Shown: one piece after another, positions 14,955 to 57,734 of the stretch | Layout of the letters: each line of letters starts with the position of its first letter | How positions within the stretch are numbered: position 1 is the first letter of the stretch | Assembly: GCA_964019415.1 (NCBI GenBank) | Contig: OZ025868.1 | Span: 15,498,578 to 15,562,577 of the forward strand | Length of the DNA stretch: 64,000 nucleotides | Direction of reading: 5' to 3' | From: Ianthella basta | Lineage: Eukaryota > Porifera > Demospongiae > Verongiida > Ianthellidae | Notes under the pieces: model-generated | Told to the model about the DNA's origin: nothing | What the model saw: the letters and a program-made list of their open reading frames with translations, nothing else | Database searches by the model: none | Program-made: the position numbers and the translations under genes

Positions 14955-17900
14955 TCACTTCCCATGCTTGGCATCCTTGAGTCTCTCCATCAACATATCT
15001 GCAGGCATTGGCTCACTGTTGGCTCCTTGTCGGTAGTAGGCAACAGTTTTGTCACGAGAAAGGAGAACAACTTCATTATGCGGAGTCACACAGATGTCAA
15101 AGCGCCATCGTCCAATTGGCTCTCCGGAGCTGTTCAGAAGTTGCACTGGTTGAACCCTCACAAACCGTGACTGGACAGCTGGATAGAAATCCTGCAGTAG
15201 TTGGCCAAGCCTTGTTTGCAACTTATCAATGAAAACTGCCTTGTTGAGGTCCAGTCCCTCCTCCACTGTGTTGTCGCTGTCTCTGATACCAAAATGTACA
15301 GTGCCCCTGGTGTGGTGGTTCAGCATGGCATTGATCTCCTTGCTGTGCTCTACCACTTTCTTGAGGACTTCACTTATGTCTTTACAGGGACGCATTGGTG
15401 GTGGCTTCTTGCTCTTGCCTGCTGGAACCATGAGGGTCTTGTACTCGTGGTTATCAGTTTCTGGACCAACATCAGCATCAACAATAGCTGCATTGGGATG
15501 CCACAAACCATCCTGCTCCTCCACCACACAACTGTCTACGGGCTGTCCACCAAGGAGTTTTATCACAGCCATCTTCACAGATTCATGCCCACCTTGAGTA
15601 GGATCACATACCTTTATCAGTGATGTATAAAGTACAAACAGCTCACTACGATACCTCAGAAACACATTTTGAGGTATATCCGCCCACACTCCTGGACGTC
15701 CACCTGCCCCCTCAATCAATGCAGCTATGTCATGGAGTTCAAACTGCTGAGCTAGATCAAGAGGTCTTAGACCATTTGGCAAGTATTCATTGACTGTTTC
15801 CTTCAACACAGGGTGGGACAACAGCTTAGTGATAAATAAACTGTGGTCGTTAGCACCCTTTCGGATTGAAGAGTCAGCAAAATCCATTCTGAAGCATTTC
15901 AATGACAGCAGTGATATGTGCAATGGGCTTAAGGAATCCCCATCCAATAAACAGAGCTGGTCAATGAAGGGAACACCTTCAGCACGGTGGAAATAATGCT
16001 TGGCACATCTCACTGCTGCAGGCATTAAACATTCATCAGAAGCAACTAACTCAATGAATTGGTCTTCCAGGAATACACTGTCTCCACAAATGGCACACAA
16101 ACACAGCACTTTGTATGCATCAACCAGACCCTTAGTGATCAAGGTTGCTAAAGCACCCCTCAGCCCTTCTCCACTGCTGCCAATGCCACATGCCTCACAG
16201 AACTGGCTCAGTTTGCTGGCATGACCACCAACAAAGCACTGTTCAAATGTAGACACTGAATGAGTGTCTCTGTCAGTGATAGCCCCACCTTTGGATGTTA
16301 GCAATTTGACCATGCCCACCTGTCCACCCTGCATAGCATACATGACAGGTGTCTCACCAACTGAATCACAAACAGTAATGAGATTACAGTCAGTTTGTAC
16401 CTCCGCAGATGCTACGTTAATTGTGGTCAAATCAGGTTCATAAGTGTCATCCTCCAAAAGGACTTCAACAGTCTCCATATGTCCATTAAAGGCTGCTTGA
16501 TGAAGTGGAGTCCCATATTCACCAGCAACCACTGACTTGGTCACACCAAGTCTGATCAGTTCGTGAACTGCTTCCGTTCTACCATAACCAGCAGCGAAGT
16601 GGAGGGGAGTACAGCCGTTCACTTTCACTGCATTCACATCACATCCTCTGTCTACCAATTTTCTCACCACTTCAACATTGCCACGTTGAGCTGCAAAATG
16701 TAGAATAGTGGATCCATCACTGTTCACTGCATCAATAAGACACCCTTCCTCCAACATGGCTGAAACAGTCTCCACATGTCCCTCAAGTGCCGCTTGATGA
16801 AGTGGAGTCCCAATATTACCAGCAACCACTGACTTGGTTGCTCCCAATTTGATCAGTTCATGAACTGCTTCTGTTCTACCACAAGCAGCAGCGCAGTGGA
16901 GGGGTGTACAGCTGTTTGCTGAAACTGCATTCACATCACACCCTCTGTCTACTAAAATCCTCATTACTTCAACATGACCACCTTGAGCTGCAAAATGTAG
17001 AACAGTCTCCCCATTACTGTCCACTGCATCAATAGGACACCTTTCTACCAACATAGCTTCAACAGTCTCTACATGTCCTTTAAGGGCTGCTTGATGAAGT
17101 GGAGCACCACAATTACCAGCAACCACTGACTTGGTTGCACCGAGTTTGATTAGCTCATGAACTGCTTCTGTTCTACCACGAGCACCAGCAGAATGGAGGG
17201 GAGTACAGCCGTTTGCTTTCGCTGCATTCACATCACACCCTCTGTCCACCAACACCCTCACTACTTCAACATGACCACCTTGAGCTGCAAAATGTAGAAC
17301 AGTCTCCCCATTACTGTCCACTGCATCAATAGGACACCTTTCTACCAACATAGCTTCAACAGTCTCTACATGTCCTTTGAGGGCTGCTTGATGAAGTGGA
17401 GTACCACAATTACCAGCAACCACTGACTTGGTTGCACCAAGTCTGATTAGTTCACGAACTGCTTCTGTTCTACCACGAGCAGCAGCAGAGTGAAGGGGAG
17501 TACAGCCGTTTGCTTTCACTGCATTCACATCACACCCTCTGTCTACTAAAACCCTCATTACTTCAACATGACCACCTGCAGCTGCAAAATGCAGAACAGT
17601 CCCTCCATCACTGTTCACTACATCAATAGGACACCCTTTCGCCAACATAGCTTCAACAGTCTCCACATGTCCATTAAGGGCTGCTTGATGAAGTGGAGTC
17701 CCACAATTACCAGCAACCACTGACTTGGTTGCACCAAGTCTGATTAGTTCACGAACTGCTTCTGTTCTGCCACAAGCAGCAGCAGAGTGGAGGGGAGTAC
17801 AGCCGTTTGCTTTCACTGCATTCACATCACACCCTATGCCTACCAACACCCTCACTACTTCAACATGACCACCATATGCTGCTGCATAATGTAGAACATT

Positions 17901-18344
17901 GGCTCCAACACTGTCCACTACATCAATAGGACACCCTTCCGCCAACATGGCTACAACAGTCTCCACATGTCCCTTAACGGATGCTTGATGAAGTGGAGTA
18001 CAACACTCTCCAGCAACCACTGACTTCGTTGCTCCCAATCGAATCAGTTCCCAAACTGCCTTTGTCTGTCCCATTCTAGCAGCCCAGTGCAGTGGAGTGA
18101 GCCCTCTACCATCAACTGAGTCTACATCACATCCCCTCCTGATGAGAAGTCTCATTGTGGTCACGTGACCACCCTCTGCTGCCCAATGCAATAAATACTT
18201 CCCCTCATCATCCTTAGTGTCAATTGGGACACCTCTGTCTAACAGGTCTACAACAGTTTCTGTCTCACCAGTTCTGACAGCTCTAATTAATGCATGTTTG
18301 TTGACAGCCAATTGCCGAGCAGTTGCAGCAGGTGACTGGTCCAT
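14955..18344 (-). CDS. Ankyrin-repeat protein with C-terminal Schlafen-type AlbA_2 domain
   Basis: A single uninterrupted frame of 1,129 codons. Residues 1-40 form a helical leader, about 45-690 hold roughly 20 ankyrin repeats (GCTPLHSAA, GHVEVVRVLV), about 690-800 a Cys-containing linker (FCEACGIGSSGEG, LCLCAICGDSVF), about 800-890 further ankyrin-like helices, and about 960-1,120 a domain with HEYKTLMVPAG, GTVHFGIRDS and VAYYRQGANSEPM. The last pattern matches the AlbA_2 domain of Schlafen-family proteins, which bind nucleic acid. Repeats 151-548 form a 99-residue super-repeat of three ankyrin units. Start chosen as the conserved first ATG. The pairing of ankyrins with AlbA_2 suggests a sensor or scaffold coupled to RNA/DNA binding; this role is inference. 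No signal peptide or membrane segment is seen. Confidence 0.9.
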   Translation of the reverse strand: MDQSPAATARQLAVNKHALIRAVRTGETETVVDLLDRGVPIDTKDDEGKYLLHWAAEGGHVTTMRLLIRRGCDVDSVDGRGLTPLHWAARMGQTKAVWELIRLGATKSVVAGECCTPLHQASVKGHVETVVAMLAEGCPIDVVDSVGANVLHYAAAYGGHVEVVRVLVGIGCDVNAVKANGCTPLHSAAACGRTEAVRELIRLGATKSVVAGNCGTPLHQAALNGHVETVEAMLAKGCPIDVVNSDGGTVLHFAAAGGHVEVMRVLVDRGCDVNAVKANGCTPLHSAAARGRTEAVRELIRLGATKSVVAGNCGTPLHQAALKGHVETVEAMLVERCPIDAVDSNGETVLHFAAQGGHVEVVRVLVDRGCDVNAAKANGCTPLHSAGARGRTEAVHELIKLGATKSVVAGNCGAPLHQAALKGHVETVEAMLVERCPIDAVDSNGETVLHFAAQGGHVEVMRILVDRGCDVNAVSANSCTPLHCAAACGRTEAVHELIKLGATKSVVAGNIGTPLHQAALEGHVETVSAMLEEGCLIDAVNSDGSTILHFAAQRGNVEVVRKLVDRGCDVNAVKVNGCTPLHFAAGYGRTEAVHELIRLGVTKSVVAGEYGTPLHQAAFNGHMETVEVLLEDDTYEPDLTTINVASAEVQTDCNLITVCDSVGETPVMYAMQGGQVGMVKLLTSKGGAITDRDTHSVSTFEQCFVGGHASKLSQFCEACGIGSSGEGLRGALATLITKGLVDAYKVLCLCAICGDSVFLEDQFIELVASDECLMPAAVRCAKHYFHRAEGVPFIDQLCLLDGDSLSPLHISLLSLKCFRMDFADSSIRKGANDHSLFITKLLSHPVLKETVNEYLPNGLRPLDLAQQFELHDIAALIEGAGGRPGVWADIPQNVFLRYRSELFVLYTSLIKVCDPTQGGHESVKMAVIKLLGGQPVDSCVVEEQDGLWHPNAAIVDADVGPETDNHEYKTLMVPAGKSKKPPPMRPCKDISEVLKKVVEHSKEINAMLNHHTRGTVHFGIRDSDNTVEEGLDLNKAVFIDKLQTRLGQLLQDFYPAVQSRFVRVQPVQLLNSSGEPIGRWRFDICVTPHNEVVLLSRDKTVAYYRQGANSEPMPADMLMERLKDAKHGK

Positions 18345-28252: not shown

Positions 28253-28452
28253 NNNNNNNNNNNNNNNNNNNNNNNNNNNNNNNNNNNNNNNNNNNNNNNN
28301 NNNNNNNNNNNNNNNNNNNNNNNNNNNNNNNNNNNNNNNNNNNNNNNNNNNNNNNNNNNNNNNNNNNNNNNNNNNNNNNNNNNNNNNNNNNNNNNNNNNN
28401 NNNNNNNNNNNNNNNNNNNNNNNNNNNNNNNNNNNNNNNNNNNNNNNNNNNN
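28253..28452. other. Assembly gap, 200 N
   Basis: A run of exactly 200 N, a conventional placeholder size, so the true distance is unknown. The left flank is the end of duplication copy 1. Confidence 1.
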
Positions 28453-29031
28453 TGTTCAAAGCGCACCCTGAGGAGATGGTGCATGGAAATATTAGCATGA
28501 GTTGCTCTAGATCTGATCTGTGTGGTTATCCACATCTGACACTAGTAGTATAGTGCTGGGCGAGGGTATGCAAGTATAATGCACATCAGTTACTGTATCA
28601 GTTACTTAAATATGTTAAAAGTCATGCTAGCTTACAGTATAATTATAATATAATTATGCCTGTGACAGGTCCACTGTATTATTCTGGAAGTGGAAGATGT
28701 TTAAAGATCAGTGCAGCTAACTGCCAAGGCACTTTCTGGGAGGCTAGCTTTAAGGGCAGCTACACTACACACACAGCTGCAGGTGGAGGGGTGCATATGG
28801 ATTAACACTGTGTGTGCTTGAGTGCATATGCATGACAATTACTCATTGTATGTGTGGAAGGTGTGAAAGAGAGACAAGTGAATATGAATTTCATGTGATT
28901 ATGACAATTTCATGAGAATGTGTTTGTCTGCGTTTTAGGTAACTACAGTATGTTTGCTGCACACTTTGCCATAAGGTTTACTATTCACTTTATAACAATT
29001 TCATAATAATATACCTTATACATACATAGAT

Positions 29032-29051
29032 CCCGTTGCCATGGTAACGGG
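29032..29051. promoter_or_regulatory. X-box-like (RFX) palindrome
   Basis: CCCGTTGCCATGGTAACGGG is an almost perfect palindrome and contains GTTGCC-AT-GGTAAC, the consensus bound by RFX transcription factors. A weaker version, GTTGCCATGGTAAT, lies at 33,263. RFX sites control ciliary genes in animals; here no ciliary gene is adjacent, so the match may be fortuitous or part of a mobile element. Confidence 0.4.
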
Positions 29052-29680
29052 CGTCTAAATGCTGAAATTAAATCACATAGACGCACAGCAAGCATTTCGC
29101 GGACAAACATGTAGCCAATAGGACGAGCGCTTGCATCTCGCCAGACCGGCGCCAGTGCATCTAAATCCCAGAGATGCACTGTGAGCAGTGCATCTAAATG
29201 CCGAACATGCACTGTTTTGTGGCACGCGCGGCGTTCGCGCTGTACTCTAAATGCAGCTGTGATAGGCAACAGCAGCTAACGCCACAACATACGACGCACA
29301 GGTCGCCTGGCTCACTTGCTTCGTCGAGAAACAGAGAAAAGCCACAATCCGGCTACAAACCAGAGCCGAGAAAGAATCCGGTTAGCTACGAGCTGGGAAC
29401 AGGCTTTGGTTAAAGACACCGTTCTAGGAAACGCTGTGGCTGACGTGACTAACAGTGAGTTAGCTTACGCTTAGCTGACGCGCCGCATCCACTGCCGACC
29501 TGTAGGAAACGTCCGCTGCGAGATGAACAGCCCAACTTGGACCCGAATCACACGACGTTTTCTCCGCCACTGTCAGGAGTAGCTAACTACTTCCGGTAGA
29601 CGCATGATGACGCAAGGACGAGTACGTAAACTGATTCGCTGCCGGCTCCTCACCCAATCATTTGGGATCTATAACACTTA

Positions 29681-29788
29681 AATGCTGACCAATCGGTGTC
29701 TCTGATGATTTAGACCACTCGGCACTCGGGCGCTTCGCGCCCTCAAGCCTCGTGCTCTAAATCTCAAAGACACCTCTTGGTCAGCATT
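29681..29788. repeat. Imperfect hairpin element
   Basis: The left arm AATGCTGACCAATCGGTGTC is mirrored by the right arm ending GACACCTCTTGGTCAGCATT, with an inner GGGCGCTTCGCGCCC palindrome. About 108 bp in all, compatible with a small fold-back MITE. Confidence 0.65.
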
Positions 29789-30195
29789 AACTATTACATG
29801 CAAAACAAGTGGAGATTCACTATAAATTATATGGATATAATAAAGCGAATTCTGCAACATTGTCACTAACACGTCCATGTTCTGTGTCACTTGAAAATCA
29901 TATTCTGAATCAGCAGTTGCATTTCCAAAATATAGGTCTTTGGACAGCTGTTTCTTGTGTAACTTGTACAAATTTGTATTCATATCCTTTCTTCATTGAA
30001 TGCCTGGATTCCAGGCTATCTTTGCTATGTATGTAGGGTTACGTCACGGTACACTTGTGACGTCAATGTAACATCTCTATAGTGATTGAACATGTGCAGT
30101 AAAGGGTGAATAAGGTGCCGTGGAGTAGGAAAGTGCTAACCACAAGATGGAATTCTACAAGTAAGACAGATCAACATAATTATACAGACTGGACT

Positions 30196-31215
30196 ATGGA
30201 CAATCTCAGCAACTTCAGCAACTTCACATCTCCCTATCCACTGAACAATCCTGGGTTTGTGGTGTTCAATGTAGTTATGTTACTGGGAGTGCTGCTTCCT
30301 GTGATTGTTGGGAATACAGTTCTTCTGGTGGCATTGGTCGTAGACCCATTCATTGTCAACATAATCCGTCTGGTGTTGGGAAGCATCTTGGTCTCCTGCC
30401 TCCTATTTGCACTGGGGCTAGCCATGTATCACATTGCAGGGATCATTCTCTACCTTTCACCAGTGAGCAACCCACCCACAGCTCCCTGTACTATCACAGT
30501 ATTCCTAATAGGCTTCGGAGGAGGAGCTAGATTGGTGTTTATGGCCACATTTGCTGTCGTAGTCTGCCTCGTTGTCAAGTATGGTGAAACCCCCAAGAAA
30601 CACTTTGTGGTGGCTAGCTCTATAGCAGTGGTTGTTCTGTGGATACTAGCCTTCCTTGGCAATTCTCCATTGCTATTGCAGGAAATTTTCTCCACTTTTT
30701 ATGCTGGCTATTTATCTTGTGGTATTTCTGCAATGGCAACATCTGCTTATACATATATTGGGCTGTATTTAGTCTGCTTTGGTCTCGTTCCTCTTTCTGT
30801 CACAGTCACAATCCTAGTCATCACTGTTTGCTACTTAAAGCGTCTCACTGTCAAAGACGTCAACCTGGAGAAGACCACAGTTAAATTTGGTTTCTGTTTG
30901 CTCCTTGGCAATGGAATTAACTTACTTGGGCAGATTTTCCCTCCATTAATATCTACCTCTGTTACTCCACAGCTTGCACCCCCATGGCCAGATGGACCAC
31001 CTTCTCATGCAGCAGTGACCTACATACCCTACACATTACTGAACCTAGCACTCATTCCCACTCCCATTTTGGTTCTCATCTTCTTCAAACCCATTCGTGA
31101 CAGACTGTGGCAGTGGTTGTGTTGTTGTGTGCCAAAGAAAAGAAAGGCCAAGTGCATTCATATGATCAACAACTCGGAAGTCCCCAGAAGTCAGATCACT
31201 ACAGCAAAGCTCTAA
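30196..31215 (+). CDS. Seven-transmembrane receptor, paralogue 1
   Basis: 339 codons from the first in-frame ATG. The N-terminus MDNLSNFSNFTSPYP carries three N-glycosylation sites. Seven hydrophobic segments follow, starting roughly at residues 21, 54, 97, 136, 183, 228 and 273 of this start. TM1 has GNTVLLVAL like the GN of rhodopsin-type receptors, and Cys residues before TM3 and between TM4 and TM5 could form the usual disulphide. TM7 has PTPILVLIFF in place of NPxxY. The tail WLCCCVPKKRKAK has a Cys cluster suited to palmitoylation and a basic stretch. Upstream codons are in frame but lack ATG, and the alignment to paralogue 2 shows out-of-frame indels there, so MDNLS is the likely start. 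Probably a lineage-specific class of GPCR; ligand unknown. Confidence 0.85.
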   Translation: MDNLSNFSNFTSPYPLNNPGFVVFNVVMLLGVLLPVIVGNTVLLVALVVDPFIVNIIRLVLGSILVSCLLFALGLAMYHIAGIILYLSPVSNPPTAPCTITVFLIGFGGGARLVFMATFAVVVCLVVKYGETPKKHFVVASSIAVVVLWILAFLGNSPLLLQEIFSTFYAGYLSCGISAMATSAYTYIGLYLVCFGLVPLSVTVTILVITVCYLKRLTVKDVNLEKTTVKFGFCLLLGNGINLLGQIFPPLISTSVTPQLAPPWPDGPPSHAAVTYIPYTLLNLALIPTPILVLIFFKPIRDRLWQWLCCCVPKKRKAKCIHMINNSEVPRSQITTAKL

Positions 31216-31496
31216 AGGAGACAGCAAGTTTAAAATGCTATCCATTTGACTTTGCACTTACTTGTCAAGGAGAAATCATCTTAAACTTTGTAGGCTTTAA
31301 GTGTGTGAACTCAATAGTGTGACATCATTGCAACATTCAATACATTTTCTGTTTAGCTGATTTAATAATTCAAGACACAGAATTGATTGCTACTAGACTC
31401 TGATGCCGTCACTCAAGGCCGTACGCTACCTCTCATATCTCATGGGTCTTGCAAGCCCATAGGCGAGTAGCCCTACTGCACGGAGGTCGCCATGCC

Positions 31497-31693
31497 AAAT
31501 AAATTTACGGTAACTCAGGACGTTTCAGCCACGTAGGCCTTCATCAACTGATAAACTGAAGATACAGAGGAGGTGCTATGTTCTAGCCACCGGTCACACC
31601 TCTATTTAAACACAGCACCTCCTCTGTATCTTCAGTTTACCAGCTGATGAATACCTACGTGGTTGAAACGTCATGAGTTACCATGAATTTCTG
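31497..31693. repeat. Inverted repeat with about 75-bp arms
   Basis: The left arm includes GACGTTTCAGCCACGTAGGC and ACTGAAGATACAGAGGAGGT; the right arm is its imperfect complement. A loop of about 45 bp separates them. The form is that of a fold-back MITE or a long hairpin transcript. Confidence 0.75.
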
Positions 31694-31820
31694 CTATGCA
31701 AGTACTTGAATAAATACCCACTAGCCACAATACATCCCTTGTCCCTGGTAGTATGACTGTTTGGGCCCCCAGCTGGCCCTTGATGGTACAGTAGTTTCAC
31801 GGTTTCTAGTCCCGATTGAA

Positions 31821-31944
31821 ATTTGCACTCTGCACTCAATCACGTGAACAAAGTATTGGACAGTGGCTTCATGCGTCATCACATACGTGAGAATGTGGTA
31901 TGCTCCAAATACTTAATTCACATGATTGAGTGCAGAGTGCAAAT
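31821..31944. repeat. Inverted repeat with about 40-bp arms
   Basis: ATTTGCACTCTGCACTCAAT at 31,820 is mirrored by ATTGAGTGCAGAGTGCAAAT at about 31,925. The outer 22 bases match perfectly and the rest with a few changes. Confidence 0.75.
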
Positions 31945-32615
31945 GTTAAACGCAGGTTTAAAAACTGTAAAACAACTGTATCACATTGCCTCTTTGGAGC
32001 CATGCTCAGAGATTCAGACTCAGACAAGAGTGTACAGCTAGCTGTTCCACACATTAACTGTACTTAAATATCAGCATAGCCTTCTTTGACAATTGCAATG
32101 GACAAAGCCTGCAAAGGACAAGGATCCAATTAATAATCAACTGAATCAATACAAATTACAAAATAGAGAACATGCACTATAATACGATAACACTATACAT
32201 AAATCTGTCCAGGAAGTGCTGCCAAATGTGAGAAAACTGTTCTGTTAGACAATGCAAGGATAATCAATTGTGTTGCACTGAAATGTAACCCTGTAATGCA
32301 ATGATATATTGTATTTAATATAAAGCAAGACTTACATTACAGTAGTGACAGTCATTTACCTATAATTCTATCAAATTAGAATGCCATGCAATGTGCAGGA
32401 GAGTGATGAACATGGAACTGAACAAATACACTGAACAACTTACAAATACACAACACTGTACTGAGGGCATGCATGATGATCAAATAGATGTCATTATTTC
32501 CATGATTCCTCATTTCGCCATCAGTGCAATTCCACCAAATCACATAGAGGTAAGTTACTGGCCAGGCTGACGCCAGGCACAGGTGTTAGTAGGACCAGAC
32601 CAGTGCCTAATAAGC
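31945..32615. other. Stretch with no recognised feature
   Basis: AT-rich and without a convincing open frame, repeat family or RNA-like structure. Confidence 0.4.
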
Positions 32616-32916
32616 TCATGCAGCTGCAGGTCTGGAGTGGGCTTCGGCTGCAGTTTGAAGGCGTTCAGAGAGTGAATCAAGACCCATGTCCTTCAATGCT
32701 ATTGACAGTGTGAGGCAGATATTTTGTCCTCTCTGCTCTCTCCTCCACTGAACCAGCATCATCAAACAGGCCTCTTCACCACTGTGCATCTGGGCTCTGA
32801 GCTCTGGGTCATCTGTGTCGTTGAAGCCAAAGGAGGCAGCAAGGTGTTCCCACCTCTTCCCAACATTGGAGGAGATTATGTCCACTTCAGAGTCCTCCAG
32901 TGTGGGAGAGAGGAAC
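32616..32916 (-). CDS. Death-domain exon or short gene
   Basis: After a plausible acceptor (CTTCTGTCCAG at about 32,917) the frame reads FLSPTLEDSEVDIISSNVGK, then RWEHLAASFGFND, MLVQWRREQRG and a final helix ALKDMGLDSLSERL, then a stop. The order of a Trp-containing helix with LA, a W-R pair near the middle and AL...G...L near the end is the Death-domain pattern. Death domains mediate homotypic contacts in apoptosis and immune signalling. There is no ATG at its start, so it is likely the last exon of a gene whose 5' part I could not identify; the open frame could extend to about 33,035. It lies between the two receptor genes, on the opposite strand. Confidence 0.7.
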
Positions 32917-33081
32917 TGGACAGAAGAGAATTGGCACTCACTCTCCAGAACTGCAAGGGACAGGTGATGGAGGAAAGTATGATGGAGGTTAAGGCTCCAC
33001 TGTGCAACAGCTTTTACTTGTTTCTGTCATTTTTATGCAATCTCTACATCAAGTGAGGGCTTCTCAGCTGGCTCAGTCATC

Positions 33082-33166
33082 AGAAAGGGTTGGTTCTCTA
33101 ATACCAGCTTCACAACAAGGTTTTCAACCCTGTTGTGAAGCTGGTATTAGAGAACCAACCCTTTCT
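33082..33166. repeat. Near-perfect 41-bp hairpin
   Basis: Arms 33,082-33,122 and 33,126-33,166 are complementary with a single mismatch, with a three-base loop. The arm contains GGTTGGTTCTCTAATACCAG. This could be a fold-back MITE end-to-end dimer or the source of a small-RNA hairpin. Confidence 0.85.
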
Positions 33167-33533
33167 AATCTCTACATCCTTATAATTTTTGCAGAAATTT
33201 TTATTATTGCTAGTCACCTATAGCCCTGTGATCTTAGGTGATATGAGATTTCGTAACCCATGGTTGCCATGGTAATGGGGGTATATGTGCAATAATTATA
33301 CTACTCCATTTAACCTGGATCTCTAGTAATCACTTCAGATCTAGGTCTCCTCAACTAGGCATACAGGTGTTTGGAATTAATCATGTTCCATGTGGATAGG
33401 GTTAATTGTCCTACAGAATGAGAATGGTAAAGGTTCACTGCTGCAAAATTCAGTGCATAATACTACACCCAATGTGTGTTATGAATGTGCCCATAGAGTT
33501 TAATAAGGCACATTCGCCGTGTCATTGCTACAG

Positions 33534-33762
<229 letters not shown>

Positions 33763-35626
33763 TGTATATACATCTGTATCTTGTGCATTCAGAATTGCTC
33801 ACACAGGTATATCACAACACATTCACAAGCTAGACAAACACTGATAGTTTATACAAAACATCATGATTGTGCATGTGATTTCTATACATTCATAAGAGCA
33901 ACAACATTGAAGTTCCCAAAACCTAGTTATTTGCAACAAGGCTCTAATGGAGATATAGCAAAGCGCATCTCGCAGATTAATAAATTTTGAAAGTACAAAG
34001 ATTCTGATCCATTCGGCAGATCATTACAAAACTTGTTAAGCCCGCAAATGTACACATAAAGACCAATCATTCCATACTGGCATAAGTTTGAACACGTTTT
34101 AATGTGAAGTGTTCCATTAAACACTATTCTGTAACATCGATTGCTATCTTTGTTACATTCAAATTCATGCATGCCTGTGCAGTAATAGCTTTGTACAAGG
34201 TGCTAAACTGCTGCCTCTTATACAGTGTGCTGGTGACGTTGACAGTGCATAATTTTTCAAGTACTTTATGGACTCTATAGGAGACAACAAAGTGCTTCCA
34301 TCTTATTTCACACTCACAAAAACATGCGTCATTTCTCAGTTACCGTTACATTATCAAATCGTTTATGCATATGCATATGCATTGTTACACTAATATCTGT
34401 TTAAGTTCACATTACTGGTAAGTGTTCAATAAAACATTATTATGTAACATCAATCGTTGCAACATTCGAGACAATATCTGTATAAGTAGTTAGTTCAGTA
34501 CGAGGCACTGAATTGATAGCTACTGCATGTAGTGTGCTATATAGTGATAGTGCATAATTGTCTATGTGCACAATTATGTATATGCACTGCAAAATAATGA
34601 TACTCCTCCAATGAACCTGAATCCCTCGTAGCCACTTTGGTTCTCCCCTACTAGCCATTGTGGTACGTGTTTTGAGGAAATCCACGTTCCATGTGAATAG
34701 AGTTAACTGTCCTACTGTATTGTAATCACAAAATTACGATTCACTGCTGAGTTGTGTACCAAACCAGCTGAGTGTGCATTAGGATAGAGGTGCCCACTTG
34801 AGCAACATGTGCATGAAGTCCGATGACATACCTGCCCAATTGAATGGTATGCGATTGTTGCATTAATTCCATTGTGACTTGCGTATATATGTGACAGTTT
34901 CTGCTTGTTCCACCCAGTACAAGTCACTGAAGTGTTTCAATGCAGCTATACCCATAGTGCAAAGGTGATGCACTACATATTTTTCAAGTACACATGTGCA
35001 CTAATATAATAGTATTGCTCCAATAACCCAGCATCTATGACTGTATCAGATTCTTCTTAAAGGTTTCTGCTTCACTGCGATCCAACATGCAGTGTATTAC
35101 ACTGGAGAATGTGATGTGAATGATTGTGTGCTGTTGTGCAAGAGATATATATACAGTGAGGTTACACATGATCAATGGACATGCACAATTATGATGTAAT
35201 CAGCAATTTGCACCAAATTAATAAGGTATAATAATAATTGCAGTGAAGAATATGTTAAACAGATCCATTCAATTTTCTAAAAGCTCAAGTGGCTACGCAT
35301 AGAGTTGCACACATGCTTCACCAGAGCAGGAAACTCCTGTACTCAAAAATATATACACTCAAATTGCAATTTTCATGCCCCCACGTTCGCCCCAGACCAC
35401 TTAACCAACATGCTGGCTCTAAAAGACCTACAGTACGAAAACAGTCACAACGAGGACATTTCCATATGTGTCAACGTATAATATTTCACCAAAGGCCTGG
35501 GCACAAGGCTATCTTTTGCCATGCATGCATGCATGAATGTGCCATGGTACGCTTGCGACGTCAAATTGAGTGCATCATCTCTATAATATTTTAGTGACTC
35601 ATGTACAGTAATTGGAGGTGAATAAA
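33763..35626. other. Intergenic region with relics of receptor 3' flanks
   Basis: Segments at about 34,080-34,260 and 34,410-34,570 resemble the region after receptor 2 (36,820-36,980), including the TTCAATAAAACATTATTATG type polyadenylation area at 34,425. They look like 3' remains of receptor copies that have been lost. A segment near 34,680-34,760 resembles 33,385-33,440 and 37,515-37,575. No intact gene is seen. Confidence 0.45.
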
Positions 35627-35701
35627 ATGCTGTGGAGTAGGAAAGCGCTAACCACAGTTGGACTTCTACAAGTAAGGCGATCAACATATACTGACTGGAC
35701 T

Positions 35702-36721
35702 ATGGACAATCTCAGCAACTTCAGCAACTTCACATCTCCCTATCCACTGAACAATCCTGGGTTTGTGGTGTTCAATGTTATTATGTTACTGGGAGTGGTG
35801 TTTCCTGTGATTGCTGTGAACACAGTGATTCTGGTGGCCTTGGTATTAGACCCATTCGTTGTGAACGTAATCCGAATGGTGTTGGGAAGCATCTTGGTCT
35901 CCTGCTTCCTGTTTGCACTGGGGCTAGCCATGTACCACATTGCAGGGATCATCCTCTACCTTTCACCAGTAAACAACCCACCCACAGCTCCCTGTACTAT
36001 CACAGTATTCCTACTAGGCTTCGGAGGAGGAGCTAGATTAGCATTTATGGCCACATTTGCTGTTGTAGTCTACATCATTGTCAAGTATGGTGAAACCCCC
36101 AAGAAACACTTTGTGGTGGCTAGCTTTATAACAGTTGTTGTTCTGTGGATAATAGCCTTCCTTGGCAATTCTCCATTGCTATCGCAGGAAATCATCTCCA
36201 CTTGGTATGGTGGCTATATATCTTGTGGTATTTCTCCAAAGGCAACATCTACTTATATATACATTGGGCTGTATTTAGCCTGCTTTGGTCTCGTTCCTCT
36301 TTCTGTCACAGTCACAATTCTAGTCATCTCTTTTTGGTACATAAAGCGTCATACTGTCAAAGACATCAAACTGGAGAAGAGTATAGTTAAATTTGGTTTC
36401 TTTTTGCTCCTCGGCAATGGAATTAACTTACTTGGGCAGATTGCTCCTCTGATAATAACTGCCTCTGTTGATCCACAGCCTACACCCCCATGGCCAGATG
36501 GACCACCGTCTCATGCAGCGGTGACCTACATATCCTACACATTACTGAATATAGCACTCATCCCCACTCCCATTTTGGTTCTCATCTTCTTCAATCCCAT
36601 TCGTGAAAGACTGTGGCAGTGGTTGTGTTGTTGTGTGCCAAAGAAAAGAAAGGCCAAGTACATTCGTAACAACAACAACTTGGAAGTCCCCAGAATCAAG
36701 ACAGCTACCACGAGGCTCTAA
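35702..36721 (+). CDS. Seven-transmembrane receptor, paralogue 2
   Basis: It has the same length and architecture as the gene at 30,196 and is very similar along its whole length. It shares MDNLSNFSNFTSPYPLNNPG, the Cys pair, PTPILVLIFF in TM7 and the WLCCCVPKKRKAK tail. Differences fall mainly in the loops and in TM1 (AVNTVIL for VGNTVLL). An earlier in-frame ATG at 35,627 would add 25 residues, but paralogue 1 has no ATG there and the interval carries out-of-frame indels between the two. AATAAA follows at 36,832. A tandem duplication about 5.5 kb apart, both copies intact, suggests both are under selection. Confidence 0.85.
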   Translation: MDNLSNFSNFTSPYPLNNPGFVVFNVIMLLGVVFPVIAVNTVILVALVLDPFVVNVIRMVLGSILVSCFLFALGLAMYHIAGIILYLSPVNNPPTAPCTITVFLLGFGGGARLAFMATFAVVVYIIVKYGETPKKHFVVASFITVVVLWIIAFLGNSPLLSQEIISTWYGGYISCGISPKATSTYIYIGLYLACFGLVPLSVTVTILVISFWYIKRHTVKDIKLEKSIVKFGFFLLLGNGINLLGQIAPLIITASVDPQPTPPWPDGPPSHAAVTYISYTLLNIALIPTPILVLIFFNPIRERLWQWLCCCVPKKRKAKYIRNNNNLEVPRIKTATTRL

Positions 36722-36831
36722 AAGAGACAACAGTGATATCCATCTAACTTTGCACTTGTTTGCCGAGTATTACAGAGAGTGTCTCAAACATTTAGACTTA
36801 ATTGTTAAACTCACATTAATGTTACATGTTT

Positions 36832-36837
36832 AATAAA
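36832..36837 (+). terminator. Polyadenylation signal AATAAA of receptor gene 2
   Basis: AATAAA lies 111 bp after the stop codon and is followed by a GT-rich stretch (CCAATGTGGTGTTC), a usual arrangement for a cleavage site. Confidence 0.55.
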
Positions 36838-37996
<1,159 letters not shown>

Positions 37997-46776: not shown

Positions 46777-46836
<60 letters not shown>

Positions 46837-47609: not shown

Positions 47610-47860
<251 letters not shown>

Positions 47861-48055: not shown

Positions 48056-48579
48056 CTGCAATGGAATAATTAAAGTAATTTAAACAATTCACTCCTCAGT
48101 CCACTGTGTCACCATCCACAGACAGAACACCACACACACCAAATACACCTTCAAACACAACACTGACACACCCTCAAACACACCCCATACACGCCCTCTT
48201 GACACACCCCTTGCACACTCCACTAACTGGTTGGTTGGTGAGGCTCACCTCCACCATCTGATGATATTCACTCAGTTCCACACACCATCAGACACACACC
48301 TTGGAGTGAAGTGGCTGTAGCAACCCCTTTGGAGAGGGGGGAGTCCCAACACTGAGTAGACTGATTCTAGATTGGAAATGGGAAGGAGACAGTGTCCCAT
48401 CATAGTCAGACCTTGGAATGAAGTGGGACACACAACAATACACACACACTCAAACATACACACACACACCAAAGTAAAATATGATGATGATAGGATATAT
48501 CATTAGTACAAAGTGCTGACCATCTTTTCATCACTGTGATACCTGTCATGTGCTGTTGTGGCACATTCACATTCATAAA

Positions 48580-48830
<251 letters not shown>

Positions 48831-49192
48831 CACATTCACCTCATGACCTGTTAAGAGATGTACTACAGTCTTGTGATTAGACACTCACCCACACACACTG
48901 AGTGATGTTTACTGCCACACTCTCAACAACTCTCAACACATCTTCATGTGCAACGTAGGCCTGACACCCCACAGAGACGTACAGAGACATCCTCACACAC
49001 ACCAGACACACGCCCCCTGACACACCCACCTGGTGCCTCCATGTTGCTCTGACCATGCACTGGGTTCCCATTAGTCACTGCATTAGACACCACCACACTA
49101 CATCCGTGGTGGAGCTGTGTTTGAAGCTAAGCTGAGGGAGTCGCCATTGGGTCAGGGTCATCTAACAGATGAGTTAACAGAAATGGGTTGGG

Positions 49193-49262
49193 ACACTAGT
49201 ACACTAGCACACTAGCACACAAGTACACTAGTACACTAGTACACTAGTACACTAGTACACTA
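49193..49262. repeat. 10-bp tandem repeat ACACTAGTAC, second copy
   Basis: Same number and order of units as at 25,745. Confidence 0.9.
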
Positions 49263-49575
49263 TGTGCATACATTTATACAATACAGTCCATTTCAGGTTG
49301 CTTGCCCCACGAATGTATCATGGGATATCAAGTTGACCAATGAAACCTGATGCCTTACCTGATGATGCAATTGGGTTCAATGAATTTGATTGGTCAGTTT
49401 GATTGTCCATTTTATGGTTGTGGAACAAGCAACACCCTCTCCCACACCAACACTTCATCACCTCCCCTCACACCCTCCCCTCACCCCTTCCCCTCCCCCA
49501 CCCCTCCCATTCACCCCTCTCCCTTCCCTCCCTCCACCCCTCACACCCACCCCTCCCCTCCCACCCCTCACACAC

Positions 49576-49682
49576 CTTGTCAAATCCACTCATGATGACA
49601 CTGTTCTTGGCCAGTTCACACATGTCCACACTACTCAGCTTCCACACTTGAGCTGCAATGCTGTACTCCTCCATCAGCGGCT
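49576..49682 (-). pseudogene. Isolated AMP deaminase exon, duplicate of 26,127-26,233
   Basis: Same sequence ([26 protein letters not shown]) and same splice sites. Here the flanks are not interrupted by a gap, and still no other AMP deaminase exon is seen within 51,700 on the right or 46,000 on the left, which supports the view that the exon is a remnant. Confidence 0.72.
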
Positions 49683-50290
49683 CTTATACATAGGTAAATA
49701 GTATTAGATATTATACAGAATCATTGCTGCATGTATGAGTACATTCACAAAACGCTTGGTCATCACTGTTCCATATAAGTACCCATATACAGCACAGTAT
49801 GACGTCCATCCATGGATACACACCACCTGCTTGCAGGTGAACACTAAAGTTATGCACAACTACATCAAGACACATTTTGGGTGTGGGGGGAGTAGAATCT
49901 GAAGCTGATAGTAACAGAACATACAAACACATATGCAGCTACATCAAGAGTTAGTGTTACCATGCACACATCTTGGAAGTTACAAATTAATTCACTCCTG
50001 AATGCATTGAGACAAGTCAAGCCCCACTCTAGTGTGCACACACACTAGAGCAGAGCTTGCTTTTGTTGTTGGTCTTGTGGTATTAAACCTCACATTCAAA
50101 ATTTACTATGGGCTAACAATTTTCAGCTGTTTAATATTCTGACGGAATCTCACAAATAAGAGTCTGTCAGTCCCCAGTTATAGTAGGCTATCCAGCCAGA
50201 TCTTTTGTGTGCCATAACATAAAGAGGCACAATCTGGTTTAGCAAAGGATTTTAAAATTCCAAATTAGTGGGTTTGCAGCCTATTTTAAC
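49683..50290. other. Stretch with no recognised feature
   Basis: Duplicate of 26,234-26,841; AT-rich, nothing supported. Confidence 0.4.
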
Positions 50291-51715
50291 TTAAAGGTCC
50301 ACTGTCGCAGTTTATAAAATTTCATATTGATAGTGCTTTGTGAAACAACTTCAATGATACCTATTCAGAGTGCTCTGCCTCACGATGGGGGAGTTACGAG
50401 GGCACAAAGTTGCAAAAAGACCAATTATGCGTGGGCGTTTCCAGTTTTCCGGCCTAACAATGCTAAAACGTCGTGACATCACAGTAGGCTCTGGAATGTT
50501 TGCGCAAGTATGGAGGAGAGTATATAGGCCAGGCAACAGACTGAACAAGAAATTGTTATCTCCTGCGAGTCTTTCTCTTACGATGAAGGCGAAACTTCTT
50601 GAGACAATGAAGGAGATACCCCTGCTGATTCTGAAACAGATCTGGGCATGTGGGTTGCGCAGCCGTACGCGTACGGCACGACATCTATTTTGCGACACGA
50701 CCAATAATACGGTGACGCCCGTCCTCAGTCCTGCAAACACCGATTTGCACCATTCTTGGACAAAACAGAGATGGTACACCAGCCTAGAGCTGATTTGTCA
50801 CCTCCTACAAGGCGTAACAGCTGAAAATACGAAGTGTGCCGAAAACATATTTTGGAGCACTCAGCACGTACTTCAGGTCACTGGCTCCCACATTGCAGGA
50901 TGTAAGCATCTTTCCACTCCTACTTGCTAGGTAGTAGGGCACACGCAAACTCTGGTCACAGCAAGAGGTTCAGAGGAAAACTCTATGTCTCTACCGAGCA
51001 TGGCTGCGCAGAACACCAGGTGGTAGGGGCATCGAAATGGCCCTGGGACACATTTTTCATCATCGCAAAGCTACTACTCATTCTTTTGTCCTTTGCAGCG
51101 ATTTGTCGTGTTCTCAATTGGCTTTCTCTGTGCTAGGAAAGATTCTCCTGTAAGTTAGAGTGTCATTTGGATTCTGACAGATGTACTAGAGTGAGCAAAG
51201 TGGTTGTTGCTAGAATATTTAGACCAAAAAACAGCGAAATGGCAGGTAGGGCATCAGTCACAATCCGAAAGGCAGTCTATCTTACAGGAGAGTCTTATCA
51301 AGCACAGAAAAATACAATGGACCCTGCTAACAGCTGCTGGCCACCGCTTCTTCAGACTATTGCTCTTTGTGAAATGAAGCAGCGACCGTTGCCTCCACCA
51401 TAGATCCATGCCTCCACTGGCCCTACTACATCCTCCAGCAACGCATTTGTGATGCATCAGGGCGAGTTCATCAGCAAGAGGGACGTGAAAGCCAGTCGGC
51501 GATTCTCTTCCCACACGGTGTGTGACCCATTCAAGCATAGACACAGATGTACGGCAAGCCTACTGCAATATGGCAGATTTCTTCGGCCGATTTTCCAGAA
51601 GTGAGCCATTATCCCTCTAACGGGGATTTCGAAGCCCTTTAACAGCGATTTTCGGTGGTTCTAAACAATCTATCACATAAAGGCAACTTGTATAACCATG
51701 ACGGTGGACCTTTAA
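50291..51715. mobile_element. TTAA-flanked DNA transposon, complete copy
   Basis: The left end TTAAAGGTCCACTGTCGC is mirrored by the right end ...GGTGGACCTTTAA, giving inverted ends TTAAAGGTCCAC(T/C)GTC, with TTAA at 50,291-50,294 and 51,712-51,715. The 1.4-kb interior has ORFs of up to about 180 codons on the plus strand (ATG at 50,385). One reading frame near 50,560-50,780 has TPADSETDLGMWVAQPYAY with stops on either side, which might be a decayed fragment of a host or transposon protein. No transposase is recognised, so it is non-autonomous; TTAA targets point to piggyBac or Kolobok. Confidence 0.7.
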
Positions 51716-52886: not shown

Positions 52887-53086
52887 TCAATACAGCTCAC
52901 CTTCACACAAGTGTGGACCCTTCTCTGTAGCAACTGCTCCTCCACTCACAACTGGAGCAGAAGTGGGGACACTCACAGCCTCTACAATTCTTCCACTATC
53001 AGTCAAGCCACATCTAGCTACTGTCTTAGTTGGTGGATGGTCTTGAGTGTCACTCTCTGAGGACCACTTCCTCTGCCAAGGCACAC
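52887..53086 (-). CDS. Last visible exon of the ankyrin-Death gene
   Basis: Acceptor CATCCTCCAG, then VPWQRKWSSESDTQDHPPTK and on to GPHLCEGELY and a stop at 52,887-52,889. A donor AAG|GTGAGC at 52,901 could lead to further exons, but the transposon at 51,965-52,854 begins a few dozen bases later and I see none. Confidence 0.45.
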
Positions 53087-53162
53087 CTGGAGGATGAGCA
53101 ACAATTGGAGGTGATGACATTACTTGGGCAAATAAATCACCAACTGAGCACAGTCCTTGTAC

Positions 53163-53268
53163 CTTCTTCATCTGATGTCCTCCTCCGCTTTGCCAATGAC
53201 CAACTCAGCTCTGCTGTCCTCTCAATGTGAACAAGAGACCTTGAGGAGCTGGCCAGCTGGGGAGAGAC
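53163..53268 (-). CDS. Downstream exon of the ankyrin-Death gene
   Basis: Acceptor TTATGCTCTCAG, codons VSPQLASSSRSLVHIERTAE and on to AKRRRTSDEE, donor GAAG|GTACAA. The first intron is about 194 bp with a long pyrimidine tract. The basic KRRR may be a nuclear localisation signal. The next exon (52,887-53,086, VPWQRKWSSESDTQD) joins in phase, forming a Gly across the junction. Confidence 0.5.
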
Positions 53269-53462
53269 CTGAGAGCATAAGGGAAACAAAAGAGATACAC
53301 AGGAGGGGAGGGGATCAGAGGGGAGGAGGGAGGGGGGGGGGGGAGGAAGAAAAGAGGAGGCAGCACGAACACAAACACACATGACAGGAGAGTAACACTT
53401 GCCTCCTCCAGACAGCACACCACACAGCACCCTTCACTCAACACACAGCACTGCACACTTAC

Positions 53463-53750
53463 CTGATGAGCTCCTCCCAATTCTGATACAATCTTGTCCG
53501 TTAGTTCATCAATAGTGTGTTTAGTCTCAAAGTGACCCAAGACATCCAACAGGGTCTTCCAGGTTACACTGCTACCGTGCTCCAACCAGTAGCTCAAGGT
53601 CTCCAAGAATCTGTTCCTGTCATCACCGAATTGATGTGAAAATGCATTAAGAGTCTCCTCACTATCAGTAATATCTTCCAGGAGCAACAGTCCAACCAGC
53701 TTCCAGTTTTGGGAGGAAACATGTGGAATGATTAGGCGACATAGTTTAGA
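53463..53750 (-). pseudogene. Death-domain exon of the broken ankyrin gene
   Basis: The frame from SKLCRLIIPHVSSQNWKLVG to DELTDKIVSELGGAHQ is open and ends at a strong donor (CAG|GTAAGT). The Trp-containing first helix, WLEHG in the middle and TWKTLLDVLG near the end are the Death-domain pattern. The domain differs from the one at 32,616, so the two belong to separate lineages. It is in the same frame as the ankyrin part and divided from it only by the TAA at 53,751. Confidence 0.75.
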
Positions 53751-56700
53751 TTATTTGGGCTTTTGTCTGAGGACATTCTCCTTACCCAGCTGTTCTGCAC
53801 TGAGCAGTGAAGGGCGGTCACTAAGAGGCTGATGGAGAACACTGGAAAACACCCCCTTGAGGAATTCACGACCATGTTCACCTTCCCGAGCAATAGCCAT
53901 CATGGAAACGTAATCCTCTTTCAATCGAGCCAGTGCTAAAGGCTGTTTAGCTTCAATTTCTTGTGGTATGTCTGCCCACACTCCTGGGCCTCCACCCGCC
54001 TCCTCAATCAATGCAGCTATGTCATGGAGTTCAAACTGTCGAGCTAGGTCAAGAGGACTTAGACCATTTGGGAAGTTCTCATTGACTGTTCTCTTCAACA
54101 CAGGGTGGGACAACAGTTTGGTGATAAATGAAGTGTGATCCTTGGAACCAGTTTGAATGCCAGGTACGGCAAGTCCCATTTCAAAGCATTTCAATGACAG
54201 CAGTGGCAATTGTAAAGTATGCAAGGCACTATCATCTGGTATACTGAGCTGGTTTAAGAATTATACTGAGCTGGTTTAAGAATGTAACACCTTCACCATT
54301 GCAGAATAAGTATTTGGCACATTTCACAGCTGCAGGCATGGCACAAACTTCAGAAGCAACTATTTCACTAAAATCATCTTCCAGGAATACACTGTCTCCA
54401 CAAATGGCACACAAACACAGCACTTTGTGTGCATCAACCAGACCCTTAGTGATCAAGGTTGCTAAAGCACCTTTTAGCCCTTCTCCACCGCTCCCAATGC
54501 CACATGCCTCACAGAACTGGCTCAGTTTGCTGGCATGGCCACCAACAAAGCAGCGTCCAAGTGTAGACACAGAATGACTGTCTCTGTCAGAGATAGCCGC
54601 ACCTTTAGCGAACAGAACTTTGAACAATTCCACCTGCCCACGCAATGCAGCCCACATTACAGGGGTCTGGCCAAATGAATCACAAATGCTAATGGCATTA
54701 TCTGACAGATGTCTTGTCAAAGGTGTGACATTACAATTGACCAAATCCAACAGAACTTCAACAGACTCAGAATGACCATAAAAAACTGCTTGATGCAAAG
54801 GTGTGCCCCATCTACCAGCAACCACTGACTTGGTTGCACCAAGTTTGATTAGCTCACGAACTGCTTCTGTTCTACCACAACCAGCAGCATCATGAAGGGG
54901 AGTACGGCCATCTACAGCAACTGCATTCACATCACACCCTCTGCCCACTAGCTTTCTCACTACTTCAACATGGCCACCTTTAGCTGCAAAATGAAGAACA
55001 GCATTCCCATTACCGTTCACTACATCACTAGGACACCCTTCCACCAACATGGCTTCAAAAGTCTCCACATGTCCATTAAGGGCTGCTTGATCAAGTGGAG
55101 TCCCAAAATCACCAGCAACCACTGACTTGGTTGCACCAAGTTTGATTAGCTCACAAACTTCTTCTGTTCTACCATAACTAGCAGCAACATGAAGGGGAGT
55201 ACAGCCATTTACGGCAACTGCATTCACATCACACCCTCTGCCCACTAGCTTTCTTACTACTTCAACATGGCCATGTGTAACTGCAAATTGAAGAACAGTA
55301 TTCCCACTACTGTTCACCACATCAATAGGACACCCTTCTGTCAACATGGCTTCAACAGTCTCCATATGTCCTTTAATGGTTGCTAGATGAAGTGGAGTCC
55401 CAAAATCACCAGCAACCACTGACTTGGTTGCACCAAGTTTGATTAGCTCACGAACTGCTTCTTTTCTACCACAATTAGCAGCATAGTGGAGGGGAGTACA
55501 GCCGTTTACTTCCACTGCATTCACATCACACCCTCTGTCAACCAATACCCTCATTACTTCAACATAACCACCTTGAGCTACACCATGCAGAACAGTGGCT
55601 CCAACACTGTCTAGTGCATCAATAGGACACCCTTCCGCCAACATGGCTTCAACAGTCTCCACATGTCCATTAATGGTTGCTTGATGAAGTGGAGTCCCAA
55701 AATCACCAGCAACCACTGACTTGGTTGCACCAAGTTTGATTAGCTCACGAACTGCTTCTGTTCTACCACGACCAGCAGCATCATGAAGGGGAGTACAGTC
55801 ATTTACTTCCACTGCATTCACATCACACCCTCTGCCAACTAGCTTTCTCATTACCTCAACATGACCACCTTAAGCTGCAAAATGCAGAACAGTCTCTCCA
55901 TTTCTGTTCACTACGTCAATAAGACACCCTTCCACCAACATGGCTTCAACAGTCTCCACATGTCCATTAACAGTTGCTAGATGAAGTGGAGTCCCAAAAT
56001 CACCAGCAACCAATGACTTGGTTGCACCAAGTTTGATTAGCTCACGAACTGCTTCTGTTTTACCACGACCAGCAGCATCATGGAGGGGAGTGCAGCCATT
56101 TACTTCCACTGCATTCACATCACACCCTCTGCCGACTAGCTTTCTCACTACTTCAACATGGCCATCTCCAGCTGCAGAATGCAGAACAGTGGCTCCAAAA
56201 CAGTCCGCTACATCAATAGGACACCCTTCCATCAACATGGCTTCAACAGTCTCCACATGTCCATTAACAGTTGCTAGATGAAGTGGAGTCCCAAACCTAC
56301 CAGCAACCACTGACTTGGTTGCACCAAGTTTGATTAGCTCACAAACTGCTTCTGTTCTACCACGACTAGCAGCATGGAGGGGAGTACAGCCGTTTACTTC
56401 CACTGCATTCACATCACACCCTCTGCCTACTAGCTTTCTCACTACTTCTACATGGCCACCTTTAGCTGCAAAATGCAGAACAGTCTCCCTATTACTGTTC
56501 ACTACATCAATAGGACACCCTTCCGCCAACATGGCTTCAACAGTCTCCACATGTCCATTAAGGGTTGCTTGATGAAGTGGAGTCCCACAATCACCAGCAA
56601 CCACTGACTTGGTTGTACTAAGTTTGATTAGTTCACGAACTGCTTCTGTTCTACCACGACCAGCAGCAGCATGGAGGGGAGTACAGCCGTTTACTTCCAC

Positions 56701-57734
56701 TGCATTCACATCACACCCTCTCCCTACTAGCTTTCTCACTATGAATGACAACATGGCCACCTTCAGCTGCAAAATGCAGAACAGTCTCTCTATTACTGTT
56801 CACTGCATCAATAGGACACCCTTCCGCCAACATGGCTTCAACAGTCTCCACATGTCCATTAACGGTTGCTAGATGAAGTGGAGTCCCAAACCTACCAGCA
56901 ACTACTGACTTGGATGCACCAAGTCTGATTAGTTCACGAACTGCTTCTGTTCTACCACAACCAGCAGCAGAGTGGAGGGGAGTACAGCCATTTGCTTTAA
57001 CTGCATTCTTATCACACTCTCTGTCTATCAAAACCCTCAATATTTTATTATGACCACCTTCAGCTGCAAAATGCAGAACAGTGGTTCCAACACTGTTCAC
57101 TGCATCAATAGGACACCCTTCCTCCAACATGGCCTCAACAGTCTCCACATGTTGTCCAATGGCTGCTTGATGAAGTGGAGTTCCAAATATATCAGCAACC
57201 ACTGACTTGGTTGCTCCCATTTGAATCAGTTCTCGAACTGCCTTTGTCTGTCCCATTGCAGCAGCCCAGTGCAGTGGAGTGAGCCCTCTACCATCAACTG
57301 AGTCTACATCACATCCCCTCCTGATGAGAAGCCTAATTGTGGTCACATGACCACCTTGTGCTGCCCAATGCAATAGAGACTTCCCCTCATCATCCATAGT
57401 GTCAATTGGGACAACTCTGTCTAACAGGTCTAATCTGAATCTTTGTAAAAGACCCATTTAAGAGCCACTAATAGAGCAGTTGCAGCAGGTGATTGGTCCA
57501 TCTGTACTGTCTGTAAGTCTCTTTACAGAGCAAGAGAAGTAAGGGAAAACATTCTCAAGTGAGGTAGGATTGAAATGTTCCATGAACACAACGGGTGATA
57601 TTCAGAACACATGATCATGGATGTGTGCGTTATTGTCAACTATTCTGGATTACTGCTACTTATTTTAAACATTAAGTAAGAACTGTGAGTGAGCCCCACT
57701 CAAATGTGAAATTAAGGGCTGTCATCATTAATTT

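Follow-up and report, generated by a model that had tools for sequence, protein, structure and literature searches.

Genes at the locus

The window analysed here is a 64,000-nucleotide stretch of the genome of the sponge Ianthella basta (assembly GCA_964019415.1, contig OZ025868.1, positions 15,498,578 to 15,562,577 of the forward strand). It contains members of a gene family in which an N-terminal ankyrin array and a conserved body are followed by one of two alternative C-terminal modules, a Schlafen-type AlbA_2 domain or a Death domain. The features are collected in Table 1; labels such as C1 and C2 denote contigs of the assembly, and L numbers denote individual loci.

Table 1. Features of the window (positions are those of the window unless a contig is given).
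Feature	Position	Strand	Remarks
Neighbouring member, MDQSPAA start and N-terminal part	1..306	-	Tail beyond the window is AlbA_2, C1:15496775-15497413
Ankyrin-body-linker A-AlbA_2 gene, P0001	14955..18344	-	Single uninterrupted frame, 1129 aa, MDQSPAA leader
SLFN_AlbA_2 domain, WHPNA to stop	14955..15503	-	PF04326
ETDNHEYK, the ExxxxExK motif of P0001	15438..15461	-	Alignment A1
Linker A (NVFLRY...LGGQPVDS)	15531..15668	-	Common to Death genes L023, L024 and L028
Post-ankyrin body, conserved, ends in VWADIPQ	15669..16427	-	131 genome matches to query 15630-16427
Ankyrin array of P0001	16428..18212	-	About residues 45-639; Pfam Ank, 19 stretches
Scaffold gap	28253..28452	.	200 N
C2-identical stretch, inverted	28453..37880	.	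Equals C2:10942356-10951783 where compared; outside the family
Lone Death exon	32619..33026	-	PF00531, 28.8 bits; inside the C2-identical stretch; not of the ankyrin family
Second AlbA_2 gene, protein identical to P0001	38403..41792	-	Probably the same locus assembled twice
Ankyrin-body-linker B-Death gene, broken	52887-57501 (ankyrin to Death 53205..57501)	-	Pseudogene in this assembly
Death-type stretch of the broken gene, after the second in-frame stop	53463..53750	-	Genome match C1:15552040-15552423, 1 stop, 95% to query

The array of the AlbA_2 gene P0001 shows a 297-bp periodicity over positions 16463-18050 in a tandem-repeat search, corresponding to units of three repeats. A Pfam search of the protein returned ankyrin repeats, a single AlbA_2 stretch and some low-scoring unrelated names. 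The AlbA_2 profile PF04326 reached 27.9 bits on the whole protein and 31.9 bits on the tail alone, against a curated cut-off of 25.3. The same search found no NACHT domain in P0001 at expect values (E) up to 1, and no match to a kinase or KEN domain or to SIR2-like, P-loop NTPase, TPR or OB domains. An earlier note on this DNA, made from the letters alone, had proposed a Schlafen AlbA_2 tail and the absence of NACHT, and both proposals are upheld by these profiles. The paralogue that it saw running off the window is also real, being the start of another gene of the family with its AlbA_2 tail outside.

The Death gene of the window shares the body of P0001 up to VWADIPQ and then passes into a Death-type stretch. 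The earlier note lists it as a gene; in this assembly it is a pseudogene, with three frame changes (between 57501 and 57457, near 56745, and at 54240-54283, the last one being a 22-bp tandem duplication) and in-frame stops at 55870 and 53751. Two putative small exons after its Death stretch look plausible by eye.

Distribution of the two tails in the genome

The 209-Mb genome was searched with the body, the family Death domain and the AlbA_2 tail, and the results were combined. The conserved body occurs at no fewer than 87 places, at least 70 of which are followed by a Death domain only, at least nine by AlbA_2 only, at least three by both and at least five by neither. These counts are lower bounds, the search scoring the best candidates, and both copies of the window are among the nine. 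The 87 places derive from 131 body matches, of which 27 distant ones were counted apart, 16 pieces were merged by hand with a neighbouring match and a partial one (C1:12483797) was dropped. At C1:16398693 the Death call was owed to a neighbour; hence 70 places and not 71 are counted as Death, and five as neither. As regards the AlbA_2 tail, 30 of 49 matches were used; the other 19 cover little more than the linker and the first part of the tail, two of them being in genes already counted as having both modules.

The ankyrin family has expanded in tandem, and its usual tail is a Death domain. At the large majority of the 70 places with Death only, this domain lies between 60 nt before and 700 nt after the end of the body. 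The distant relatives of the body, located on C2, C3, C7, C12 and C22, carry Death only in 27 of 27 cases among the matches listed. The MDQSPAA leader is found in members with either tail, and several AlbA_2 genes retain long open frames (e.g., 1132, 1497, 979, 968 and 788 aa). Twelve genome matches exceed the PF04326 cut-off, nine of them behind a body of this family and three on C10 or C11. The proposal of a common ankyrin body with two alternative C-terminal modules, which had been based on a single pair of genes, is supported across the genome.

Alpha-type AlbA_2 exons are present on C10 and C11 (L075 at C10:2490000-2494750, and L043-L048). The C10 case that was analysed stands behind a 743-aa frame with a sub-threshold match to a Roc GTPase (16.8 bits, cut-off 27). 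The AlbA_2 module possibly also serves a second, Roc-like GTPase platform, which is a lead rather than a finding.

Joints between body, linker and effector

Body, linker and effector form one uninterrupted frame when read from the DNA. Two linker types, A and B, occur with Death, and AlbA_2 is found behind both. The joints recur at two points, directly after VWADIPQ and at the end of the linker of about 45 residues. For example, P0001 and the Death gene L011 share 94.3% DNA identity as far as the penultimate base of VWADIPQ, beyond which no similarity between the two is detectable. Body and linker A of P0001 also match the Death genes L023, L024 and L028 at 82-84%, the match ending 28 to 33 nt before WHPNA. 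The switch directly after VWADIPQ, as it had been described from the two window genes, stands in relation to linker-B Death genes, whereas in relation to linker-A Death genes it lies about 46 codons later.

Eight AlbA_2 genes were compared with 28 Death loci in this way. Seven of them gave rows, and in all seven the listed best matches stop at one or both joints. One exception concerns reach, as L027 matches P0001 for 22 nt beyond WHPNA; moreover, C1:15854590 matches positions 3-72 of the AlbA_2 tail. In a few Death genes, such as these, a short piece of the beginning of AlbA_2 may persist.

In P0001, the stretch that ends shortly after ExxxxExK matches the beta-type AlbA_2 genes L037 and L041, and the remainder is nearer to the alpha type found at C1:14617440 and on C10. 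In several beta genes, gamma and then alpha remnants follow behind. A deletion joining a beta unit to an alpha unit may have produced P0001. A mosaic is seen at C1:11847597-11848495 (L063, L065), where AlbA_2 crosses a former splice-donor stretch into another segment of VWADIPQ and linker B, as if these were scars of recombination.

In a minority of genes, the tail has been replaced repeatedly, in frame, by an AlbA_2 domain of SAMD9/Schlafen type at two recurrent joints.

Phylogeny of the body

A tree was built from the 37 of 87 bodies that are whole in the fetched loci, one of the two window copies being left out. Its rows comprise 28 genes with Death, six with AlbA_2 and three with both, and the AlbA_2 rows are scattered among the others. 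The strongly supported branches require at least four changes of the AlbA_2-only label, and this label is no more clustered than shuffled labels are (132 of 500 shuffles were as low). Two AlbA_2 rows sit on long branches, and their exact placement is unsure. A single origin of the AlbA_2 tail was rejected by the approximately unbiased (AU) test, with p of 9.4e-5 when the AlbA_2 rows were forced together and 5.1e-4 when the mixed rows were included. Such scattering fits repeated exchange of tails or, equivalently here, exchange of bodies by gene conversion. The suggestion of modular exchange in the earlier note is supported: one AlbA_2 clade is rejected, the joints recur, and the exchange has happened more than once.

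Identity of the AlbA_2 and Death domains

All 16 rows of the AlbA_2 alignment (A1) match PF04326 at E up to 0.1; the alignment leaves out L043 (in-frame stop), L047 (the same as L046) and the fragments L056 and L059-L067. Of the 14 rows covering the ExxxxExK motif, 13 retain it. When the profile of the 16 rows was compared with solved structures, the best matches were the tRNA-cleaving ribonuclease (tRNase) domain of rabbit SAMD9 (E 9.9e-5), that of human SAMD9 (6.5e-4) and, behind them, SLFN11 (0.016). The nearest solved relative of the family AlbA_2 is the SAMD9 tRNase domain. The motif is essential for cleavage by SLFN14, according to a published study (PMC12215978). HEYK or HEFK is also present in SAMD9 chains; by our own count of positions, these letters include E196 and K198 of SAMD9, both of which are named as important in a further article (PMC12331169). 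Most beta-type tails end in a similar Lys/Arg-rich stretch (L041, L049-L051, L053, L054, L057, L058).

The Death profile PF00531 matches 10 of 10 aligned family members, with a best E of 4.3e-8, and the claim of a Death-domain tail is confirmed in this respect, with some single copies below the cut-off. The member nearest to the broken copy of the window reaches 15.3 bits, below the cut-off of 22.6, and several copies in the genome exceed it (e.g., 33.4 bits at C1:11411480). The best solved match of the family Death domain is the death domain of Fas (E 0.053). A second Death-type exon lies downstream of many members; 38 copies of it share at least 82% identity, 37 being on C1 and one on C17. 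It is mostly located in the C1 cluster at 11.4-12.6 Mb (C1:11410487-12562446) and scores 14.3 bits against Pfam Death.

Variation in the ankyrin array

Variation in the repeats was analysed at positions 2, 3, 5, 13, 14 and 33, treated as the binding face; they were chosen after some repeats had been viewed by eye. We take these positions, numbering included, to be those randomised in designed ankyrin binders. The randomised positions of such binders are described as lying on the concave surface. Among 362 repeats found, 276 fall into three classes and 86 were left out. In the three classes, mean entropy is 1.76, 1.66 and 1.55 at the six positions and 0.36, 0.64 and 0.73 elsewhere. The ratio of non-synonymous to synonymous diversity (piN/piS) is 1.29, 1.10 and 0.93 at the six positions and 0.30, 0.47 and 0.69 elsewhere. 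One-sided rank tests of piN/piS gave p of 0.0005, 0.006 and 0.03, class 3 being the weakest. This pattern fits a presumed binding face under diversification.

Proposed mechanism

The proteins of this family would act as sensors in the cytosol, binding a ligand with the variable concave side of the ankyrin array. The ligand may be altered self or a protein of microbial or viral origin, and the tail would be switched on once the sensors cluster on the ligand. Members with a Death tail would recruit Death-fold adaptors and so trigger inflammatory signalling or cell death. Members with an AlbA_2 tail would themselves be ribonucleases (RNases) that attack tRNA or other structured RNA, and translation would stop with the adaptor step skipped. 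The tandem layout, together with shared body and linker DNA, could allow unequal recombination or gene conversion to pair a sensor with either output. As an inferred function, ligand-clustered ankyrin sensors with interchangeable Death-signalling or direct RNase output have, in our estimate, an even chance of being correct. The immune role is putative.

A wider reading can be offered only tentatively. The family would represent NTPase-free innate immune receptors of animals, in which recombination at two fixed joints couples fast-diversifying ankyrin sensors either to a Death adaptor or to an RNase of the SAMD9/Schlafen type. A given specificity could then be switched from cell-death signalling to a direct block of translation or back, and a Roc-like GTPase platform may use the same AlbA_2 module.

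Several observations weigh against these readings. Several single Death domains stay below the Pfam cut-off when scanned alone. In L044, Q replaces the second glutamate of the motif, and the tail of P0001 alone matches SAMD9 at an E of only 0.12. By our own reading of the alignment, not every subtype keeps the acidic positions outside the motif that are important in SAMD9. An AlphaFold2 (AF2) model of a single AlbA_2 tail has a mean predicted local distance difference test (pLDDT) score of 36. Relaxed constraint would also explain a piN/piS near 1, and the result for class 3 is weak (p 0.03). The two modules are not strictly exclusive, as a Death domain at C1:11847597-11848283 reads on, without a change of frame, into a gamma AlbA_2 unit. 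Architecture, exchange, motif and selection pattern are observed; ligand, clustering, RNase activity and immune role are inferred.

Among other explanations, the one that survives best, though unlikely, is that the AlbA_2 tail is a non-catalytic nucleic-acid binder. It would serve to sense RNA or DNA or to position the protein, and the ankyrin array would be the output or adaptor side. The AlbA_2 domain of SAMD9 was first predicted to bind DNA or RNA, according to one account (PMC5445408), and the Lys/Arg-rich end of most beta-type tails would suit such a role. However, nearly all rows covering ExxxxExK retain this motif, which SLFN14 needs for cleavage, and variation on the presumed binding face suggests that the ankyrin array is the recognition side.

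It is more doubtful that the fusions merely result from rampant recombination within a tandem array and drift without selected function. Many broken copies and remnants, the window Death gene included, would be expected of such drift, but the long open frames of several AlbA_2 genes are not, and the AlbA_2, body and Death parts look maintained because the median ratio of non-synonymous to synonymous substitution (dN/dS) is 0.36 (78 pairs), 0.40 (66 pairs) and 0.23 (10 pairs), respectively, values blurred by high dS in many AlbA_2 pairs.

There is a slim chance that an ancestor carried both tails, Death and then AlbA_2, and that its descendants lost one or the other without any exchange. The in-frame reading of Death into gamma AlbA_2 and the three places at which both tails occur are in line with such an ancestor. 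The distant relatives listed are all Death only, though, and beta and alpha tails sit directly behind the linker, where Death would be. Moreover, P0001 shares linker A with diverged Death genes and its body with a linker-B Death gene, a combination that loss alone would not give. Assembly chimeras at the body-AlbA_2 junctions, as the scaffold gap and probable misjoin near the window gene might suggest, are barely credible, since the misjoin lies at 28-38 kb, outside the gene, and such junctions occur at several loci with differing linkers and diverged AlbA_2 sequences.

Relation to known systems

Sensor-effector proteins of this kind, as proposed for the ankyrin family, have partial counterparts in known systems. 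RNase L, which published sources place in the KEN row of a table (PMC3710099) and in the 2-5A pathway, also combines an ankyrin array and an RNase-type output in one protein. Its layout is ankyrin, kinase-like and KEN (HEPN) RNase; P0001 has no kinase or KEN/HEPN match by Pfam, its RNase-like domain is of the AlbA_2 fold family, and it belongs to a large family with a Death alternative. SAMD9 and SAMD9L contain the nearest solved AlbA_2 relative, within a layout of SAM or Death-fold domain, AlbA_2 tRNase, SIR2-like domain, P-loop NTPase, TPR and OB. Invertebrate SAMD9 proteins also join AlbA_2 to Death-superfamily domains, as one article describes (PMC5445408). In contrast, P0001 has an ankyrin sensor and a C-terminal AlbA_2, and its family mostly replaces Death instead of adding to it.

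The Schlafen proteins SLFN11, SLFN13 and SLFN14 resemble the family in the PF04326 match and ExxxxExK. The N-terminal core of SLFN proteins consists of two AlbA_2-type lobes, whereas P0001 has one AlbA_2 unit and an ankyrin array replaces the middle and C-terminal SLFN domains; in the profile search, SLFN11 (E 0.016) ranks behind SAMD9. Invertebrate ankyrin-Death proteins and NOD-like receptors (NLRs) are similar in their repeat sensor, Death-fold tail and expanded clusters, and sponges are reported to have many Death and NACHT genes (PMC12909245). The comparison with NLRs made in the earlier note holds for the layout of variable repeat sensor and exchangeable effector, but not for membership, as P0001 has no NACHT match. 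TRADD-N and Death-like proteins are described as Death-fold adaptors with exchangeable partner domains, including ankyrin repeats (PMC8195603). The order in the sponge family is reversed, with ankyrin N-terminal and effector C-terminal, and neither AlbA nor Schlafen occurs in the main text of that article.

Membership in the SAMD9, NLR or RNase L families was rejected, as the required domains were not found in P0001 by Pfam. The nearest published ideas are SAMD9 with Death-fold domains, in the account cited above (PMC5445408), and RNase L. No ankyrin family with alternative Death and AlbA_2 tails was found in open-access titles and starts of abstracts, which is weak evidence of absence, subscription papers and preprints being mostly outside this scope. 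The family offers a concrete case of a putative immune sensor whose output module has been exchanged several times in one genome, and the joints are located with a precision of a few bases. The presence of the same array with two outputs makes sensor-effector modularity directly testable. Additionally, it places an RNase-like domain of the SAMD9/Schlafen type directly behind a recognition array, without the NTPase of SAMD9 or the second messenger of RNase L.

Assembly of the window and other features

The segment 14360-28252 (13.9 kb), which ends at the scaffold gap, recurs at 37809-51701 with eight mismatches and eight gaps. The inverted stretch between them is 99.9-100% identical to C2, as compared in three pieces covering 7.4 of 9.4 kb, and ends in an (AC)n microsatellite. 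The part of the window from 28253 to 51701 is probably a misassembly. Most simply, a single locus would have entered the assembly twice, and the end of a chimeric contig would have been attached at the microsatellite. Because the repeat, the gap and the C2-identical stretch point to a misjoin, the pair of identical AlbA_2 genes probably represents a single gene. On the same grounds, the copy at 38,403 was rejected as evidence of real duplication, and the support that the earlier note drew from it is probably an artefact of the assembly.

The lone Death exon, also noticed earlier, is a real Death match, but it is not of the family and probably comes from an unrelated locus. An identical 136-aa frame is present on C2, and in the genome searches the exon was not matched by the family's own Death queries. 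It was therefore rejected as a part of the ankyrin family. Scans of the window gave no Rfam match at the gathering threshold and no tRNA.

The C2-identical stretch also contains two related 369-aa frames (30106-31215 and 35612-36721, plus strand), with 86.7% identical DNA over 1.28 kb. By eye they resemble multi-pass membrane proteins, and the first had no Pfam match. In the simplest reading, both frames, like the lone Death exon, are part of the C2 locus. Elsewhere in the genome, apart from the ankyrin-family clusters, a dense tandem array of Death-domain frames occupies C6:9055080-9388172.

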